Source: Actinoallomurus soli
GTDB taxonomy: Bacteria; Actinomycetota; Actinomycetes; Streptosporangiales; Streptosporangiaceae
DNA length: 64,000 nt
Reading direction: 5' to 3'
NCBI RefSeq assembly: GCF_024055715.1
Contig: NZ_JAMXMV010000001.1
Location: forward strand, 868,001-932,000
The notes under the pieces were generated by a model. That model was not told the origin of the DNA and did no database searches. It saw only the letters and a list, made by a program, of their open reading frames with translations. The stretch's first letter is position 1, and every line of letters starts with the position of its first letter. Of this stretch, positions 39,886-57,817 are shown piece by piece. A program made the translations under genes and the position numbers.

Positions 39886-39910
39886 GTTTCCCTCCCCTGA
39901 AGAGGGGTAG
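39886..39910 (+). promoter_or_regulatory. Stress-sigma-like promoter before DUF3072 gene
   Basis: GTTT (39886-39889) and GGGTAG (39905-39910) are separated by 15 bp, matching the GNNT-N14-16-GGGTA(C/T) pattern described for SigB-type promoters in actinomycetes. Start of transcription would fall near 39917. The same arrangement precedes the gas vesicle operon. Confidence 0.6.
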
Positions 39911-39912
39911 TC

Positions 39913-39932
39913 CATCGAACCTGAGTTCGATG
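39913..39932. promoter_or_regulatory. Inverted repeat at the DUF3072 transcript start
   Basis: CATCGAAC and GTTCGATG are perfect arms around CTGA, between the GGGTAG box and the ribosome site. It could be an operator or the 5' hairpin of the transcript. Confidence 0.5.
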
Positions 39933-39947
39933 ACCGGAGGAGGGGAC

Positions 39948-40145
39948 ATGACCGAACGGCCCGTGGAGAAGGACCCCGAGGACTGGACGACGGGTGACGA
40001 GCCGATGACCGGACCGCAGGAGTCCTACCTGCGCACCCTCGCCCGTGAGGCGGGCGAGGACGTGCCGGAGAACCTGTCCAAGGCGCAGGCGTCCGAGCTG
40101 ATCGACGAGCTGCAGGGCCGCAGCAAGCGCCTGCGAGGTGGCTGA
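39948..40145 (+). CDS. DUF3072 small protein
   Basis: A 65-residue soluble protein: MTERPVEKDPEDWTTGDEPM then TGPQESYLRTLAREAGEDVP and a helical end KAQASELIDELQG. The DUF3072 signature is W-TGDEPMTGPQ-SYL-TLA-EAG-----LTKA-AS--I--LQ. Members are stress-associated small proteins of unknown activity. ATG 39948 has GGAGGAGGGG just before it. The sigma-B-like promoter upstream supports a general stress role. Confidence 0.88.
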   Translation: MTERPVEKDPEDWTTGDEPMTGPQESYLRTLAREAGEDVPENLSKAQASELIDELQGRSKRLRGG

Positions 40146-52245: not shown

Positions 52246-52593
52246 CCGTCACTCCATCCGCGAAGGCGAGCACTGTCCGATATCTTCCCCCGAGCCGTCA
52301 CGGCGGCGGAACCCACCGGTATTTCGGCACCCGGAACATTCGCCGGACCGTGGCCGCCTGTCAACGCTGAGTGACAGTTTTCGGGGTTTAGAACCTCCAT
52401 TTCTACGCGTCGTGCAAGCCCGCCTCCGCTCCGTCGAGCACGGCGCCGACAGGCCGGGTGACCTCGGACGTTGGTTACGGACGCCGTAGACCCCCTGTCT
52501 GTTTGGAGGTGATTTGTGCGGGTAGCCGCTGGACCAAGCCGGCCGAACCGCGGGTACCGGTTCCGGCCGGACCGACGAAGAAGGGAATGGAAC
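52246..52593. promoter_or_regulatory. Regulatory region of the gas vesicle operon
   Basis: This 348-bp region holds no gene. An inverted repeat CTGTCA/TGACAG (52358-52363 and 52372-52377) lies in its first half, the stress-type promoter at 52501-52525 in its second, and GGGTACC at 52552. A ribosome site (AAGGGAATGG) precedes gvpA. Confidence 0.6.
52501..52525 (+). promoter_or_regulatory. Stress-sigma-like promoter of the gvp operon
   Basis: GTTT (52501-52504), a 15-bp spacer and GGGTAG (52520-52525) match the SigB-type pattern GNNT-N14-16-GGGTA. Transcription would start near 52532, giving a leader of about 60 nt before gvpA. Confidence 0.65.
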
Positions 52594-53019
52594 ATGGGCA
52601 GCGGGCAGATAGCCCAGCGCGGCGCTCCGGTACAGCAGTCCTCCGGCGGTGGCGGCGGCGGTCTCGCCGACGTCGTCGAGCTGATCCTCGACAAGGGCCT
52701 CGTCATCGACGCCTTCGTCCGGGTCTCCCTCATCGGCATCGAGATCCTCCGCATCGACGCGCGCGTCGTCATCGCCAGCGTCGACACGTACCTGCGCTTC
52801 GCCGAGGCGTGCAACCGCCTCGACATCGCCAACGACGGCTCCAGCGCCGGTCTCCCCCAGATGATCGGCCAGATGACGGAGAGCGGCGCCAAGCGCAAGA
52901 CCAGGGGCGCACTTCAGGGCGCCGGTGAGACGCTCCGCGACACCCTCGGCCGAGGCCAGGACAAGGAGAAGGCCGGCTCCCGCCGGAAGAAGGACGAAGA
53001 CGACGAGGAGGAGCAGTGA
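52594..53019 (+). CDS. gvpA: Gas vesicle structural protein GvpA-type
   Basis: The 141-residue protein contains the GvpA/GvpJ core (residues about 23-85): [40 protein letters not shown] and [15 protein letters not shown]. It forms the ribbed protein shell of gas vesicles. Actinomycete GvpA is longer than cyanobacterial GvpA (about 70); here a basic-acidic tail ([18 protein letters not shown]) follows. ATG 52594 has AAGGGAATGG upstream. Its stop overlaps gvpF (GTGA). Confidence 0.93.
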
Positions 53020-53753
53020 CCGTGCAGTACGTCTACGGCGTCACCGACGCCGACGTGGAGATCCCCGGAACGCTGACGGGGATCGACGGCCAGGAGGTGT
53101 CCCTGGTCACCCACGGACGCTGCGCCGCCCTGGTGAGCGACCTGGCCGCCGACCGGCCCCTCGGCACGCGTGACGACCTCATGGCCCACCAGGCCGTCCT
53201 CCAGCAGGTGGTCGAGGCGGGCGGGACCGTCCTGCCCTTCCGCTTCGGCGGCGCGCTGACCGACCGGGACGCCGTCGTCGAGGAGCTCCTCAGCCCCCAC
53301 GAGGACACGTTCGTCGAACAGCTCGAGTCCCTGCGCGGCCAGATCGAGGTGCGGATCAAGGCGCGGTACGTCGAGGACGCCGTGCTGCGCGAGATGGTGC
53401 AGGACGAGCCGGAGATCGCCGAGCTCAACCAGCGGGTCCGCGAGCTCCCCGAGGACGCGGCCTACTACGACCGGGTACGCCTCGGCGAGCTCATCGCGCA
53501 GGCCTTCACCCGCCGCCGCGAGAACGACGGACAGGGCCTGCTCGACGCCCTGGCGCCCCGCGCCACGGCGGTCGCGCAGCGCGAGCTGTCCCGGGAGGAC
53601 GACGTCCTGGACGCCGGCTTCCTCATCGACCGCAAGGAGCGCGAGGAGTTCGAGAAGCTGGTCGACGAGGTCGGCAAGGAGATCGACGGGCGCATCCGCC
53701 TGCGCTTCGCCGGGCCCCTGCCGCCGTACGACTTCGTCGGCCAGGAGAGCTGA
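53016..53753 (+). CDS. gvpF: Gas vesicle protein GvpF/L
   Basis: This 245-residue protein is a GvpF/L-family protein ([15 protein letters not shown] at the N-terminus, [19 protein letters not shown] in the middle, and [17 protein letters not shown] at the end). GvpF and GvpL bind GvpA and help assemble the shell. GTG 53016 overlaps the gvpA stop. Its stop is 1 bp from gvpG. Confidence 0.92.
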
Positions 53754-53754
53754 C

Positions 53755-53991
53755 ATGGGACTCTTCTCGGGGCTGGTGCTGTTGCCGCTGGCCCCGGTGC
53801 GGGGGGTCGTATGGCTCGCCGAACAGGTACAGGAACAGGCCGAACGCCAGCTGTACGACCCCCAGCGCATCGTCCGCCTCCTCGAAGAGGTGGCCGAGGC
53901 CCGTGACGCTGGCGAGATCAGCGAAGAGGAGGCCGCTCGCCAGGAGGAGGAGCTGGTGAACCTGCTGGCAGAGGGGTCTCGCCGGAGGTAG
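53755..53991 (+). CDS. gvpG: Gas vesicle protein GvpG
   Basis: A 78-residue coiled protein with LLPLAPVRGVVWLAEQVQEQ and a helical acidic stretch (LLEEVAEARDAGEISEEEAA) ending NLLAEGSRRR, the GvpG pattern. It is a minor assembly component. ATG 53755 is right after the gvpF stop. The stop lies 6 bp before the gvpO start. Confidence 0.92.
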   Translation: MGLFSGLVLLPLAPVRGVVWLAEQVQEQAERQLYDPQRIVRLLEEVAEARDAGEISEEEAARQEEELVNLLAEGSRRR

Positions 53992-53997
53992 GTGACC

Positions 53998-54381
53998 ATG
54001 CCCCAGAGCAGAAGCACCCAGAGTCAGAGCGGCCAGAGCGAAGGGGGACAGAGCCAGAACGGCCGGAACCAGAGCGGCCGGAGCGGAGGCCGGAGCGGGA
54101 GCGGTCGGCGCAAGAAGGGCCTCGCCCCCGAGGAGGTCGCGCGCACGGCCGTCGAGCACGTCGTCGAGATGACGGGCCGCGAGAGCGAGGGCGTCATCGC
54201 GCTGGAACGGACCGACGACGGCTGGAAGGTCGGCGTGGAGGTCGTGGAGTCCGGCCGCATCCCGGACACCAACGACATCCTCGCCGTGTACGAGGCCGAA
54301 CTCGACGACGAGGGCAACCTGCTCTCATACCGGAGGACCGCCCGCTACTACCGCGGGCGGTTCGATAGGGACAAACGATGA
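53998..54381 (+). CDS. gvpO: Gas vesicle protein GvpO
   Basis: This 127-residue protein has a Ser/Gln/Gly/Arg-rich N-terminal region (residues 1-38) and the GvpO domain: VEHVVEMTGRESEGVIALER, DDGWKVGVEVVESGRIPDTNDILAVYEAELD, RRTARYYRGRFDRD. GvpO affects gas vesicle expression or assembly in haloarchaea and is widespread in actinomycetes. ATG 53998 has GGAGGTAG upstream; GTG 53992 would add two residues. It overlaps gvpJ by 4 bp. Confidence 0.9.
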   Translation: MPQSRSTQSQSGQSEGGQSQNGRNQSGRSGGRSGSGRRKKGLAPEEVARTAVEHVVEMTGRESEGVIALERTDDGWKVGVEVVESGRIPDTNDILAVYEAELDDEGNLLSYRRTARYYRGRFDRDKR

Positions 54382-54761
54382 CAGAAGTGACGTGGGCCGG
54401 CGGCTCGCGCTCCGCGGCGCCCCAGCAGAGTGGGCCGTCCTCGGCCAATCTGGCCGACATCCTCGAGCGGATCCTCGACAAGGGGATCGTGGTCGTCGGC
54501 GATATCCGCGTGAACCTGCTCGACATCGAGCTGCTGACGATCAAGCTCCGGCTGCTGATCGCGTCCGTGGACCGCGCGAAGGAGATGGGGATCGACTGGT
54601 GGGAGCACGACCCGACCCTCTCCTCCAAGCACAACGACGTGATCGAGGAGAACCGCCGGCTGCGTGAGCGCCTCGCCGCGCTCGAGGGCGGCGAGGAGAA
54701 CGGCCAGAGCCGCGCGGTGGAGGAGAACGCCGAGGAGAAGGCGGAGGCGGATCGTGGCTGA
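54378..54761 (+). CDS. gvpJ: GvpA-family protein (GvpJ)
   Basis: The protein of 127 residues has a second GvpA/J core, SSANLADILERILDKGIVVV then GDIRVNLLDIELLTIKLRLLIASVDRAKEMGIDWWE, followed by a coiled acidic tail (NRRLRERLAALEGGEENGQS). GvpJ is a minor shell protein near the tips. ATG 54378 overlaps the gvpO stop. Its 3' end overlaps the next gene by 8 bp. Confidence 0.92.
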   Translation: MTEVTWAGGSRSAAPQQSGPSSANLADILERILDKGIVVVGDIRVNLLDIELLTIKLRLLIASVDRAKEMGIDWWEHDPTLSSKHNDVIEENRRLRERLAALEGGEENGQSRAVEENAEEKAEADRG

Positions 54762-55527
54762 CGTCGGCGTCTACCTGTACGGAGTGGCGCAGGACCTCTC
54801 ACCCGACGCCCTCCGCGACCTCCCCGGCGTGGCCGGCGCCCCGGTGCGCACCGTCGCGGACGGCGGGTTCGCGGCGCTCGTCAGCACCGTCGACCTGGAG
54901 GAGTTCGGGGAGACGGCGCTGCGGCGCAACCTGGAGAGCCTGCAGTGGCTGGAGGCGACGGCACGGGCCCACCACGACGTCGTCGACACGGTGGCGCGGG
55001 CGGCCCCCACCGCTCCGGTGCGGATCGCGACGGTCTACCGCGACGACGACCGCGTCCGTGAGCTGCTGCGGGAGCGGAGGGACGAGCTCACCGAGGTCCT
55101 CGGGCGGGTCGTCGGCCGCGTCGAGTGGGGCGTCAAGGCGTACGGGACCCCCGAGGCGGCGCAGGAGCCGTCCGGCGGGGACGACGCCGCGAACGACAAG
55201 CCCGGCATGGCCTACCTGCGGCGCCGGCGGCTCCAGCAGCAGAGCCGGGAGGAGGCGTCCCGGCGTCTCGCCGAACAGGCGCAGGAGATCCACGCCACGC
55301 TGTCCGAGCACGCGGTGGCGAGCCGGCAGCACCCGCCGCAGGACCCGCGCCTGTCCGGGCACGAGGGGACCATGATCCTCAACGTGGCGTACCTGCTCGA
55401 CGAGGACCGTGCCGAGACCCTGGCCGCCGCCGCCGACGAGCTGGCGGCCCGGATGCCCGGCGTACGGATCGAGCTCACCGGCCCCTGGCCCGCGTACTCC
55501 TTCACCGAACTGGACGCGTCGTCGTGA
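54754..55527 (+). CDS. gvpL: Gas vesicle protein GvpL/F
   Basis: This 257-residue protein is a second GvpF/L-family member (VGVYLYGVAQDLSPDALRD at the start, APVRIATVYRDDDRVRELL in the middle, GPWPAYSFTELD at the end), with a variable insert (residues about 130-190) rich in Gln and Arg. It is likely to form a complex with GvpA-type proteins. GTG 54754 overlaps gvpJ and its stop overlaps the GTG of gvpS. Confidence 0.92.
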   Translation: MADVGVYLYGVAQDLSPDALRDLPGVAGAPVRTVADGGFAALVSTVDLEEFGETALRRNLESLQWLEATARAHHDVVDTVARAAPTAPVRIATVYRDDDRVRELLRERRDELTEVLGRVVGRVEWGVKAYGTPEAAQEPSGGDDAANDKPGMAYLRRRRLQQQSREEASRRLAEQAQEIHATLSEHAVASRQHPPQDPRLSGHEGTMILNVAYLLDEDRAETLAAAADELAARMPGVRIELTGPWPAYSFTELDASS

Positions 55528-55754
55528 GCGTGGGGGAGGACGTCGAGCGCGCCGTGGCGGTCCGGCAGGACCCGCGGGCGCTGCCGTCCGAGCGGATCGC
55601 GCTCGTCGATCTGCTGGACCGCCTACTCGCGGGCGGCGTGGTGATCGCCGGCGACGTCGTCATCTCGATCGCGGAGATCGACCTCGTCCGGGTGTCGCTG
55701 CGGGCCCTGATCACGACGGTTAAAGAGGAATACGATGACATCCTCCCTCACTGA
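55524..55754 (+). CDS. gvpS: Small GvpA-family protein (GvpS)
   Basis: A 76-residue protein with the GvpA-like core IALVDLLDRLLAGGVVIAGD then VVISIAEIDLVRVSLRALIT. It resembles GvpS, the third GvpA-type subunit of actinomycete gvp operons. GTG 55524 overlaps the gvpL stop. It overlaps gvpK by 20 bp. Confidence 0.88.
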   Translation: MSVGEDVERAVAVRQDPRALPSERIALVDLLDRLLAGGVVIAGDVVISIAEIDLVRVSLRALITTVKEEYDDILPH

Positions 55755-56025
55755 ACGGCTGCGGACGGACCCGGAGACCGTCGAGCACGACCTCGCGGCG
55801 CTGGTCCTCACCGTGATCGAGCTGATCCGGCAGCTGATGGAGAAGCAGGCCCTGCGCCGCGTCGAGGAGGACGAGAGCCTCACCGACGACCAGGTCGAGC
55901 AGCTGGGCCTGGCGCTGATGCGGCTCGACGAGGCCATGGAGCGGCTGAAGGACCACTTCGGGCTGACGGCCGAGGACCTCAACCTCGACCTGGGGCCGCT
56001 CGGGACGCTCCTGCCCGAGGCCTGA
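55735..56025 (+). CDS. gvpK: Gas vesicle protein GvpK
   Basis: A 96-residue helical protein with the GvpK pattern ALVLTVIELIRQLMEKQALR, DQVEQLGLALMRLDEAMERL and LTAEDLNLDLGPLGTLL. GvpK is an essential minor component of gas vesicles. It overlaps gvpS by 20 bp and closes the eight-gene run, which ends at a strong hairpin. Confidence 0.93.
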   Translation: MTSSLTERLRTDPETVEHDLAALVLTVIELIRQLMEKQALRRVEEDESLTDDQVEQLGLALMRLDEAMERLKDHFGLTAEDLNLDLGPLGTLLPEA

Positions 56026-56092
56026 CCAGGCCGTACGAACGGCGTCCCGGTCCGTACGAACGTCCGCCGGCGGGAGGGCTCCCCCGGCGAAC

Positions 56093-56144
56093 GTCCGCCG
56101 GCGGGAGGGCGGGGTAGGGGCTCGCCGCCCTCCCGTCGGCGGAC
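56093..56144. terminator. Long hairpin between gvpK and the convergent small gene
   Basis: GTCCGCCGGCGGGAGGGCGG and its near-perfect complement (one G:U pair) form a 20-bp stem with a 12-base loop. It ends 8 bp before the stop of the minus-strand gene. A 23-bp direct repeat (CGAACGTCCGCCGGCGGGAG and following bases, 56057 and 56088) shares its left arm. Confidence 0.75.
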
Positions 56145-56152
56145 GGAGGGGA

Positions 56153-56443
56153 TCACTTCTTCCGCAGGCGGCGAATGAACCAGCCCGCGACGAGCACGAG
56201 GGCCACCGGCACGGCGCGCGGGCCGATGAAGCGGATCGCCGCGCCCAGCACCCGCACCAGCCGGCCGAGCGCCAACGACTTCAGCGCCTTCCCGACGACG
56301 GGAGCCCGCAGGCCCTTCATCACCGTTTCCTGCGCCGCTTTCTTCGGGGCGTTCTTCAGCGCGCCGGCGGATTGCGTGACCTTCTTGTCCGGGCGGGACT
56401 CGGCGGCCTTGTTCACCGCGGCACCGGCAATGTTCTTGCGCAT
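56153..56443 (-). CDS. Small basic membrane protein next to gvp operon
   Basis: The 96-residue protein is very basic (KK, RK, Lys-Asn-Ala-Pro-Lys-Lys) through residue 55, then has one hydrophobic helix (RAVPVALVLVAGWFIRRL) ending in RLRKK. I recognise no named family. It converges on gvpK and is divergent from the SRPBCC gene. On its own strand GAAT-N14-GGGTAC lies 46 bp before its ATG, the same promoter type as gvp, which supports a link to gas vesicles or stress. Confidence 0.65.
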   Translation of the reverse strand: MRKNIAGAAVNKAAESRPDKKVTQSAGALKNAPKKAAQETVMKGLRAPVVGKALKSLALGRLVRVLGAAIRFIGPRAVPVALVLVAGWFIRRLRKK

Positions 56444-56488
56444 GTCGCGCCTCTCCTATTGGGGGGACATCCGTTCTGCATCATGGTC

Positions 56489-56512
56489 GTACCCGGACAG
56501 CGCGACCTATTC
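56489..56512 (-). promoter_or_regulatory. Stress-sigma-like promoter of the small basic gene
   Basis: On the minus strand GAAT (56512-56509), 14 bp, then GGGTAC (56494-56489). A start near 56482 would give a leader of about 39 nt before ATG 56443. Confidence 0.6.
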
Positions 56513-56602
56513 CTGCGCAGGTGGAAGTAACGCCCGGATCCCTTGACCGGCCGTGTCCGGGGAATTGCCCGCCGTGATCCACCGGTCGTCCGGAGCCGAT
56601 CG

Positions 56603-56627
56603 GAATGCGTCGCCTTTTCGCGGGTAA
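56603..56627 (+). promoter_or_regulatory. Stress-sigma-like promoter of the SRPBCC gene
   Basis: GAAT (56603-56606), a 15-bp spacer and GGGTAA (56622-56627). A start near 56634 would give a leader of about 47 nt before ATG 56681. The final A departs from the usual C/T. Confidence 0.5.
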
Positions 56628-56680: not shown

Positions 56681-57817
56681 ATGGCCGAGCGGCCAGGGAG
56701 TTCTCTTGCGAAGCACGCGACGAGCATCGCCAAGCCGGTGACGAAGCAGATCGGGAACACCGTCAAGACGGTCGCAAAGGAGGCCCGGCGCGGCGGTGAC
56801 CTGGGGCCCAAGGCCGCTGCCGGCGCGGCCAAGTCCATCGGGAAGGCCGGCGGGGCGTCGGCGAAGGCGGCGGTCTCCGGAGGCATCACCGCGCTCAAGG
56901 AGGTCGGTGGGCAGGTGATCGGCAAGAACGGCAAGGACAAGAAGGGCGAGGGCGGGTCCGCCAAGACGAAGGTCACCAACATCATCGAGGAGATCGACGT
57001 CGGCGCGCCCCGGCAGCTGGTGTACGACCAGTGGACGCGTTTCCAGGACTTCCCGTCCTTCATGAAGAAGGTGGAGAGCACCGACCAGCTCGCCGACGAG
57101 AAGGTGCGCTGGAAGGCGAAGATCTTCTGGTCCACCCGCACGTGGGAGTCGACGATCGTCGAGCAGGTCCCCGACGAGCGGATCGTCTGGCGCTCCACCG
57201 GCCAGAAGGGCTACGTCGACGGAGCCGTGACGTTCCACGAGCTGGCCTCGGACCTGACCCGTGTCCTGCTCGTCCTCGAATACCACCCGCAGGGGTTCAT
57301 GGAGAAGACCGGCAACCTCTGGCGCGCCCAGGGGCGGCGGGCCCGGCTCGAGCTCAAGCACTTCCGGCGGCACGTCATGTCGCAGGCGCTGCTCCACCCC
57401 GGTGACGAGGCCGAGGGCTGGCGCGGCGAGATCCACGACGGTGAGGTCGCCACGTCCGCGAAGAGCGACGGGCAGGGCGGTTCCAAGAGCCGCCGGACCT
57501 CGTCCCAGAGCGGCCGCTCGACCCGGTCCCGCAGCTCGTCGAGCGCGGCCAAGTCCTCCGACAAGGCCTCGTCGGCCAAGTCGTCCGACGAGAAGTCGTC
57601 GGCGTCGAAGTCGTCCGGAGACAAGGCCTCCTCGGCCAAGTCGTCCGGTTCCTCGTCGGCCGGGTCCTCCGGAGGCAGGTCCTCGGGCACCCGGCGGTCC
57701 TCGAACGCCAAGAAGTCGTCGGCGTCCGGGCGGTCCTCGGGCGGCTCGTCCGGCGGTTCCTCCTCGGGCACGCGGCGGTCGGCCGCCAAGGAGACCGCGG
57801 GGGCCAAGGACGAGTAG
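56681..57817 (+). CDS. SRPBCC (polyketide cyclase-like) protein, gvpZ-like
   Basis: The 378-residue protein has a basic Ala/Lys-rich start (residues 1-95), an SRPBCC/START-like domain (about 100-225: NIIEEIDVGAPRQLVYDQWT, FPSFMKKVESTDQLADEKVR, YVDGAVTFHELASDLTRVLL), and a long Ser/Lys/Gly tail of about 120 residues made of KSSDKASSAKSS-like repeats. SRPBCC genes (gvpZ) occur in Streptomyces gvp clusters, so a gas vesicle role is likely, perhaps binding a lipid or hydrophobic ligand. ATG 56681 has GAGAGGG upstream; a sigma-B-like promoter precedes it. Confidence 0.82.
   Translation: MAERPGSSLAKHATSIAKPVTKQIGNTVKTVAKEARRGGDLGPKAAAGAAKSIGKAGGASAKAAVSGGITALKEVGGQVIGKNGKDKKGEGGSAKTKVTNIIEEIDVGAPRQLVYDQWTRFQDFPSFMKKVESTDQLADEKVRWKAKIFWSTRTWESTIVEQVPDERIVWRSTGQKGYVDGAVTFHELASDLTRVLLVLEYHPQGFMEKTGNLWRAQGRRARLELKHFRRHVMSQALLHPGDEAEGWRGEIHDGEVATSAKSDGQGGSKSRRTSSQSGRSTRSRSSSSAAKSSDKASSAKSSDEKSSASKSSGDKASSAKSSGSSSAGSSGGRSSGTRRSSNAKKSSASGRSSGGSSGGSSSGTRRSAAKETAGAKDE

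Follow-up and report, generated by a model that had tools for sequence, protein, structure and literature searches.

Do the gas-vesicle (gvp) operon of Actinoallomurus soli and the two genes beside it share one class of promoter, and which sigma factor would read it? The window analysed here is a stretch of 64,000 nucleotides (nt) from a host genome that is about 98% complete and divided among 60 contigs; it carries the gvp operon, a gene for a small basic protein and a gene for an SRPBCC protein. A first-pass annotation had placed a box of the form GNNT-N14/15-GGGTA before each of these units and assigned all three to SigB-type sigma factors. Direct reading of the sequence bears out the three boxes where they had been placed (Table 1), and GGGTA ends 69 nt before the ATG of gvpA, 46 nt before that of the basic-protein gene and 54 nt before that of the SRPBCC gene. 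We consider it highly probable that the boxes are SigB/SigF-type promoters, probably read by a sigma factor encoded on contig C9, and that the three units are switched on together under stress.

The features on which this assignment rests are a GNNT and a GGGTA element at about the published spacing, conservation of the boxes before related genes, and the presence of a cognate sigma factor in the genome. The published SigB consensus of Streptomyces coelicolor is GNNTN-N14-16-GGGTAY (PMC5402319; this and the other papers are cited from excerpts), and a motif related to it is given in PMC3613396. With the conservation in Actinoallomurus and Actinomadura and the single SigB/SigF/SigG-family sigma of the host, this consensus supports a promoter type common to the three units, and the first-pass annotation is very likely right on the promoter class.

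Conservation of the boxes in related genomes

Relatives of the SRPBCC protein were collected from 48 loci of Actinoallomurus, Actinomadura, Streptomyces, Frankia-type organisms and a small number of further actinomycetes. A. spadix (L009) and A. iriomotensis (L010), the two further Actinoallomurus in which this cluster turned up, have the full set of three genes and three boxes. The A. spadix locus is close to the window, its basic protein being 85% identical. In A. iriomotensis the flanks, 30 nt on each side of a box, agree with the window at 51 of 180 positions (28%, ungapped), and despite this divergence GTTT/GGGTA, GAAT/GGGTA and GATT/GGGTA are kept at matching places. These boxes were located by pattern, so that their fixed letters match by construction and the evidence lies in each region holding one. 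The box GAAT-N14-GGGTA precedes the basic-protein gene in all three genomes found with that gene.

A GTTT-N15-GGGTA box lies upstream of the SRPBCC gene in 16 of 20 Actinomadura loci, as judged by a scan of 400 nt from which L056 (33% identical) was excluded. Three loci (L020, L027 and L029) have no box upstream of this gene; in A. barringtoniae the SRPBCC gene of L019 is likewise without one, and the SRPBCC gene beside the gvp operon of this species (L110) has one. When the 120 nt upstream of the gene were compared in 15 Actinomadura and three Actinoallomurus, the box was found in 18 of 18 regions, against 0.44 in letter shuffles and at most 1 of 18 with permuted -10 letters. This set omits the four boxless loci as well as L024, which is boxed and has no usable start codon, and where alternative starts existed one downstream of the box was taken, which biases the distances; the 400-nt scan is free of that choice. 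Apart from L019, the Actinomadura SRPBCC loci have no gvp gene in the fetched flanks. Gas-vesicle genes are present somewhere in 21 of the 22 Actinoallomurus and Actinomadura genomes searched; among the 20 Actinomadura genomes, G077 gave no match and the gvp head of G076 falls outside the 18 heads described next.

Before gvpA itself, GTTTA[GC]-N12-GGGTA occurs in 16 of 18 Actinomadura, ending 46-70 nt from the ATG, a count for which starts were located by translation, the permuted controls being those of the SRPBCC set. In the remaining two operons (L110 and L112), the box precedes a gene for a Lys/Ala-rich basic protein directly before gvpA, and a box at this position, before a Lys/Ala-rich gene preceding gvpA, is found in 12 of the 18 heads. 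Nine heads (L104, L107-L109, L114 and L117-L120) have in addition a divergent G[GA]TT..GGGTA box near gvp. In eight of these an open reading frame (ORF) for one of a set of alike-looking membrane proteins begins 10-11 nt past GGGTA, a distance that suggests a nearly leaderless transcript, and the ninth runs into a contig end. The one such ORF searched, that of L107, matches the Pfam family MNHE below its curated cut-off (18.7 bits versus 27).

A candidate sigma factor and the alternatives

The host genome encodes one protein that matches TIGR02980 (SigBFG) above the cut-off (C9:33114-33785, 312.8 bits); the next four matches are RpoD/SigA-like. A gene upstream of the C9 sigma resembles RsbW weakly (55.6 bits versus a cut-off of 145). 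All 23 other genomes searched contain at least one SigBFG sigma above the cut-off, and exactly one is found in six of the 24, namely the host (G000), G060, G070, G071, G078 and G080. Each of these six keeps a box before gvpA or before the gene preceding gvpA (the window, L009, L112, L113, L118 and L120). The single SigB/SigF/SigG-type sigma is the likely reader of the boxes. Stress, probably osmotic, would free the C9 sigma from its anti-sigma factor, RNA polymerase carrying this sigma would read all three boxes, and the gvp operon, the basic protein and the SRPBCC protein would be induced together. Binding by the C9 sigma, joint induction, the kind of stress and a part for the basic and SRPBCC proteins in vesicles are what the sequence leads us to propose.

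The boxes could also be true promoters that serve another sigma, instead of or besides that of C9, which escaped the family search. S. coelicolor has nine SigB homologues with overlapping promoters (PMC8346170), which gives this reading some substance, as do A. iriomotensis and 15 of the 19 Actinomadura searched, which have more than one SigBFG match above the cut-off; we judge it unlikely for A. soli, which has a single such match, and boxes are kept in five other single-sigma genomes.

Several results weigh against this explanation or against its generality. The 15 kb read showed no GGGTA box ahead of the C9 sigma operon. As a later test, six gvp heads were taken from five other Actinoallomurus; one is cut by a contig end, and only one of the five testable heads, L194, has the box, which there precedes a gvpY-like gene. 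Among 22 loci of Streptomyces, Frankia-type and other organisms with a matched gvp head, the strict pattern GNTT-N13-16-GGGTA occurs at none of the heads; it was found twice across 25 such loci, on neither occasion at a gvp head. Genome-wide, the loose GNNT motif shows no excess over a backwards-pattern control (367 versus 486 sites for N14, 198 versus 333 for N15), and for want of an excess we rejected the loose-motif count, in the window as in the genome, as evidence. The stricter GTTT-N13-15-GGGTA gave 30 sites against 16 for the backwards control. Even here the advantage before genes is small: 16 of the 30 sites precede an ORF, as do 5 of 16 control sites, by an automatic and crude filter that missed two gene-preceding sites (those of the DUF3072 and MNHE-like genes) and with control sites in which GGTAG replaces GGGTA, 11 of 27 control matches having been removed since they contained GGGTAG. 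Finally, homology of the window's basic protein with the small proteins encoded before gvpA in Actinomadura is unsupported: comparison of its profile with one of 14 such proteins gave a probability of 3.7% over 17 columns.

A matrix built from 45 Actinomadura boxes ranks the gvp box first among 255,882 placements in the window and the fourth box of Table 1, which the first-pass annotation had not listed, second, and leaves both GAAT boxes outside the top 15, a further point on the opposing side. The training set was chosen with GTTT, and two plus-strand boxes (L108 and L116) were removed from it as they precede other genes. Together with the GAAT itself, where the SRPBCC boxes of Actinomadura have GTTT, this ranking favours the view that the gvp box alone is strong as a SigB-type promoter, with the two others weak or read by another factor. 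That view is compatible with the explanation we prefer; it seems improbable to us, given that GAAT or GATT is retained with GGGTA in all three Actinoallomurus and that the S. coelicolor consensus requires just GNNT (PMC5402319).

A reading of the boxes as chance hits of a permissive pattern, selected by eye from several in the window, would accord with the count of GNNT-N14/15-GGGTA there (7, versus 4.36 +- 1.91 in 50 dinucleotide shuffles) and with the lack of genome-wide excess, and is nonetheless close to refuted and hardly credible in view of the conservation footprint, since related genes have the boxes in front of them in Actinomadura as well as in Actinoallomurus and the permuted controls of the SRPBCC set are near zero. 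It is this conservation in related genomes that lifts the boxes above chance. In letter shuffles of the 120 nt upstream, a GNNT-N13-15-GGGTA match arises with a frequency of 0.029 for gvpA, 0.017 for the SRPBCC gene and 0.014 for the basic-protein gene, these three regions having been picked post hoc.

The genes behind the boxes

Through their boxes, two proteins that are unnamed or little known become candidates for a part in the process served by the gvp operon. The products of that operon match PF00741, PF06386, PF05120, PF05800 and PF05121, all above cut-off; the labels gvpJ and gvpS were assigned by gene order, as the A, J and S genes all three match PF00741. Their close spacing suggests that the gvp genes form a single transcript. 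A hairpin in the gvpA leader is unremarkable (-29.3 kcal/mol, z -1.06).

Table 1. Promoter-like boxes and genes in the window (positions count from its first nucleotide)
Feature	Position	Strand	Description
gvp operon box	52501..52525	+	GTTT 52501-52504, N15, GGGTAG 52520-52525; probable SigB/SigF type
Basic-protein gene box	56489..56512	-	GAAT 56512-56509, N14, GGGTAC 56494-56489; probable SigB/SigF type
SRPBCC gene box	56603..56627	+	GAAT 56603-56606, N15, GGGTAA 56622-56627; probable SigB/SigF type
gvp operon	52594..56025	+	gvpA 52594-53019, gvpF 53016-53753, gvpG 53755-53991, gvpO 53992-54381, gvpJ-type 54378-54761, gvpL/F 54754-55527, gvpS-type 55524-55754, gvpK 55735-56025
Small basic protein gene	56153..56443	-	96 aa, convergent with gvpK
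SRPBCC (Polyketide_cyc) gene	56681..57817	+	PF03364, 67 bits; Lys/Ala-rich N-terminus, Ser-rich tail
Fourth box	39886..39910	+	GTTT-N15-GGGTAG, 20 nt before DUF3072 ORF 39930-40145 (PF11272, 105.7 bits)

The basic protein has a Lys/Ala-rich N-terminus, a hydrophobic C-terminal stretch and a basic tail, and is probably membrane-anchored; it has no family match in Pfam or NCBIfam. A search of 60 genomes found it in three, counting the host, all of them among the eight Actinoallomurus, and gvp genes are present in all eight. Its likeness in make-up and position to the Actinomadura proteins encoded before gvpA may be convergent, because the profiles do not match. A service of this protein to gas vesicles is a hypothesis.

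The SRPBCC protein resembles GvpZ in two respects: it has an SRPBCC domain, and the genes of its Streptomyces relatives sit within gvp clusters, with gvpY on one side and gvpJ on the other. Locus L036 of Streptomyces reads gvpO, A, F, a gvpY-like gene, the SRPBCC gene and a second GvpA-type gene, so that the SRPBCC gene occupies the place of gvpZ in the gene order printed in PMC5839063. The label GvpZ rests on this gene order, with the gvpY-like neighbour read in L036 alone; gvpY-like genes were found in three of eight loci searched.

In A. spadix (L102) and A. iriomotensis (L103), the 120 nt preceding gvpA of a second gvp cluster are free of a box; the second cluster of A. spadix does have one ahead of a gvpY-like gene, as does that of the host. 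The second gvp cluster of the host (L128, G000:C5:78000-96000) contains gvpY-like, SRPBCC and gvpA genes, with GTTT-N15-GGGTA some 150 nt upstream of the gvpY-like ATG, or 99 nt if the longest reading supplies the ATG, and a divergent gene there, resembling by eye one for an Hsp20 protein, carries an N16 box.

Elsewhere in the host genome, where the ORFs downstream of 8 of the 30 GTTT-N13-15-GGGTA sites were searched, this motif precedes MNHE-like (below cut-off), STAS, SRPBCC and Hemerythrin genes (L152, L144, L139 and L151). The MNHE-like gene lies on contig C23; its GTG comes 11 nt after the box, and it scores 26.9 bits against the Pfam family, just under the cut-off of 27. It is plausible that these box-preceded genes form a stress regulon.

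A wider proposal is made tentatively, and we think it rather doubtful as a whole. In Actinoallomurus and Actinomadura, the gvp genes, a Lys/Ala-rich and probably membrane-anchored protein and a GvpZ-type SRPBCC protein, joined in Actinomadura by an MnhE-like antiporter subunit, might constitute one dispersed SigF-type stress unit, in which the two unnamed proteins would be accessory gas-vesicle or envelope proteins and the vesicle genes would act in stress, not in flotation. For the gas-vesicle genes of soil actinomycetes the stress hypothesis becomes tractable here: with one candidate sigma and three neighbouring boxed units, a single deletion would test it, which is harder in S. coelicolor with its nine SigB homologues.

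Comparison with known systems

The closest parallel is the SigB regulon of S. coelicolor, in which the promoter of the gvp operon (SCO6496-6508) is stated to be SigB-regulated (PMC5733086, citing Lee et al.). The SigB consensus of that species, GNNTN-N14-16-GGGTAY, is of the same class as the host boxes; the box of the host's basic-protein gene, with N14 after GNNT, is one base shorter. On acid shock, 11 of 16 gvp genes were up and two down (PMC2631018). S. coelicolor, known here from papers, differs in having nine SigB homologues, whereas the host has one above cut-off. The Streptomyces loci also carry the SRPBCC gene inside the gvp cluster, whereas the SRPBCC gene of the host has its own promoter box. 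A looser pattern gave one GNNT..GGGTA ahead of gvpA in L045, at a place that probably belongs to gvpO. In four Frankia-type loci (L033, L034, L035 and L037) gvpO is preceded by GTTT paired with GGGGA or GGGCA, which may be a variant of the SigB-type promoter.

A counterpart to the basic-protein gene may be sought in SCO6509, which encodes a hydrophobic protein, is numbered beside gvpK (SCO6508) and has a SigB-type promoter dependent on SigB and SigM (PMC8346170); its published box, GCCTGT-N12-GGGAAA, differs from the host boxes. In L036 gvpK is followed by a convergent 57-aa hydrophobic ORF, the arrangement of the basic-protein gene in the host; the product of this ORF is unlike the host protein by eye, and only its position suggests that it is the counterpart of SCO6509. 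The SigF system of Mycobacterium smegmatis is similar in that the sigma gene is cotranscribed with an anti-sigma gene and in its consensus, GGWWT-N16-17-GGGTAY (PMC7693655), the spacer of which is longer than in the host boxes.

A full-text literature search returned nothing on gas vesicles with Actinomadura and, for Actinoallomurus with sigma factor, no paper on the topic by title. SigB-type control of gvp genes in these two genera thus seems unreported in the literature searched, and its principle is already known: our findings extend a form of control known from Streptomyces and do not describe a new system.

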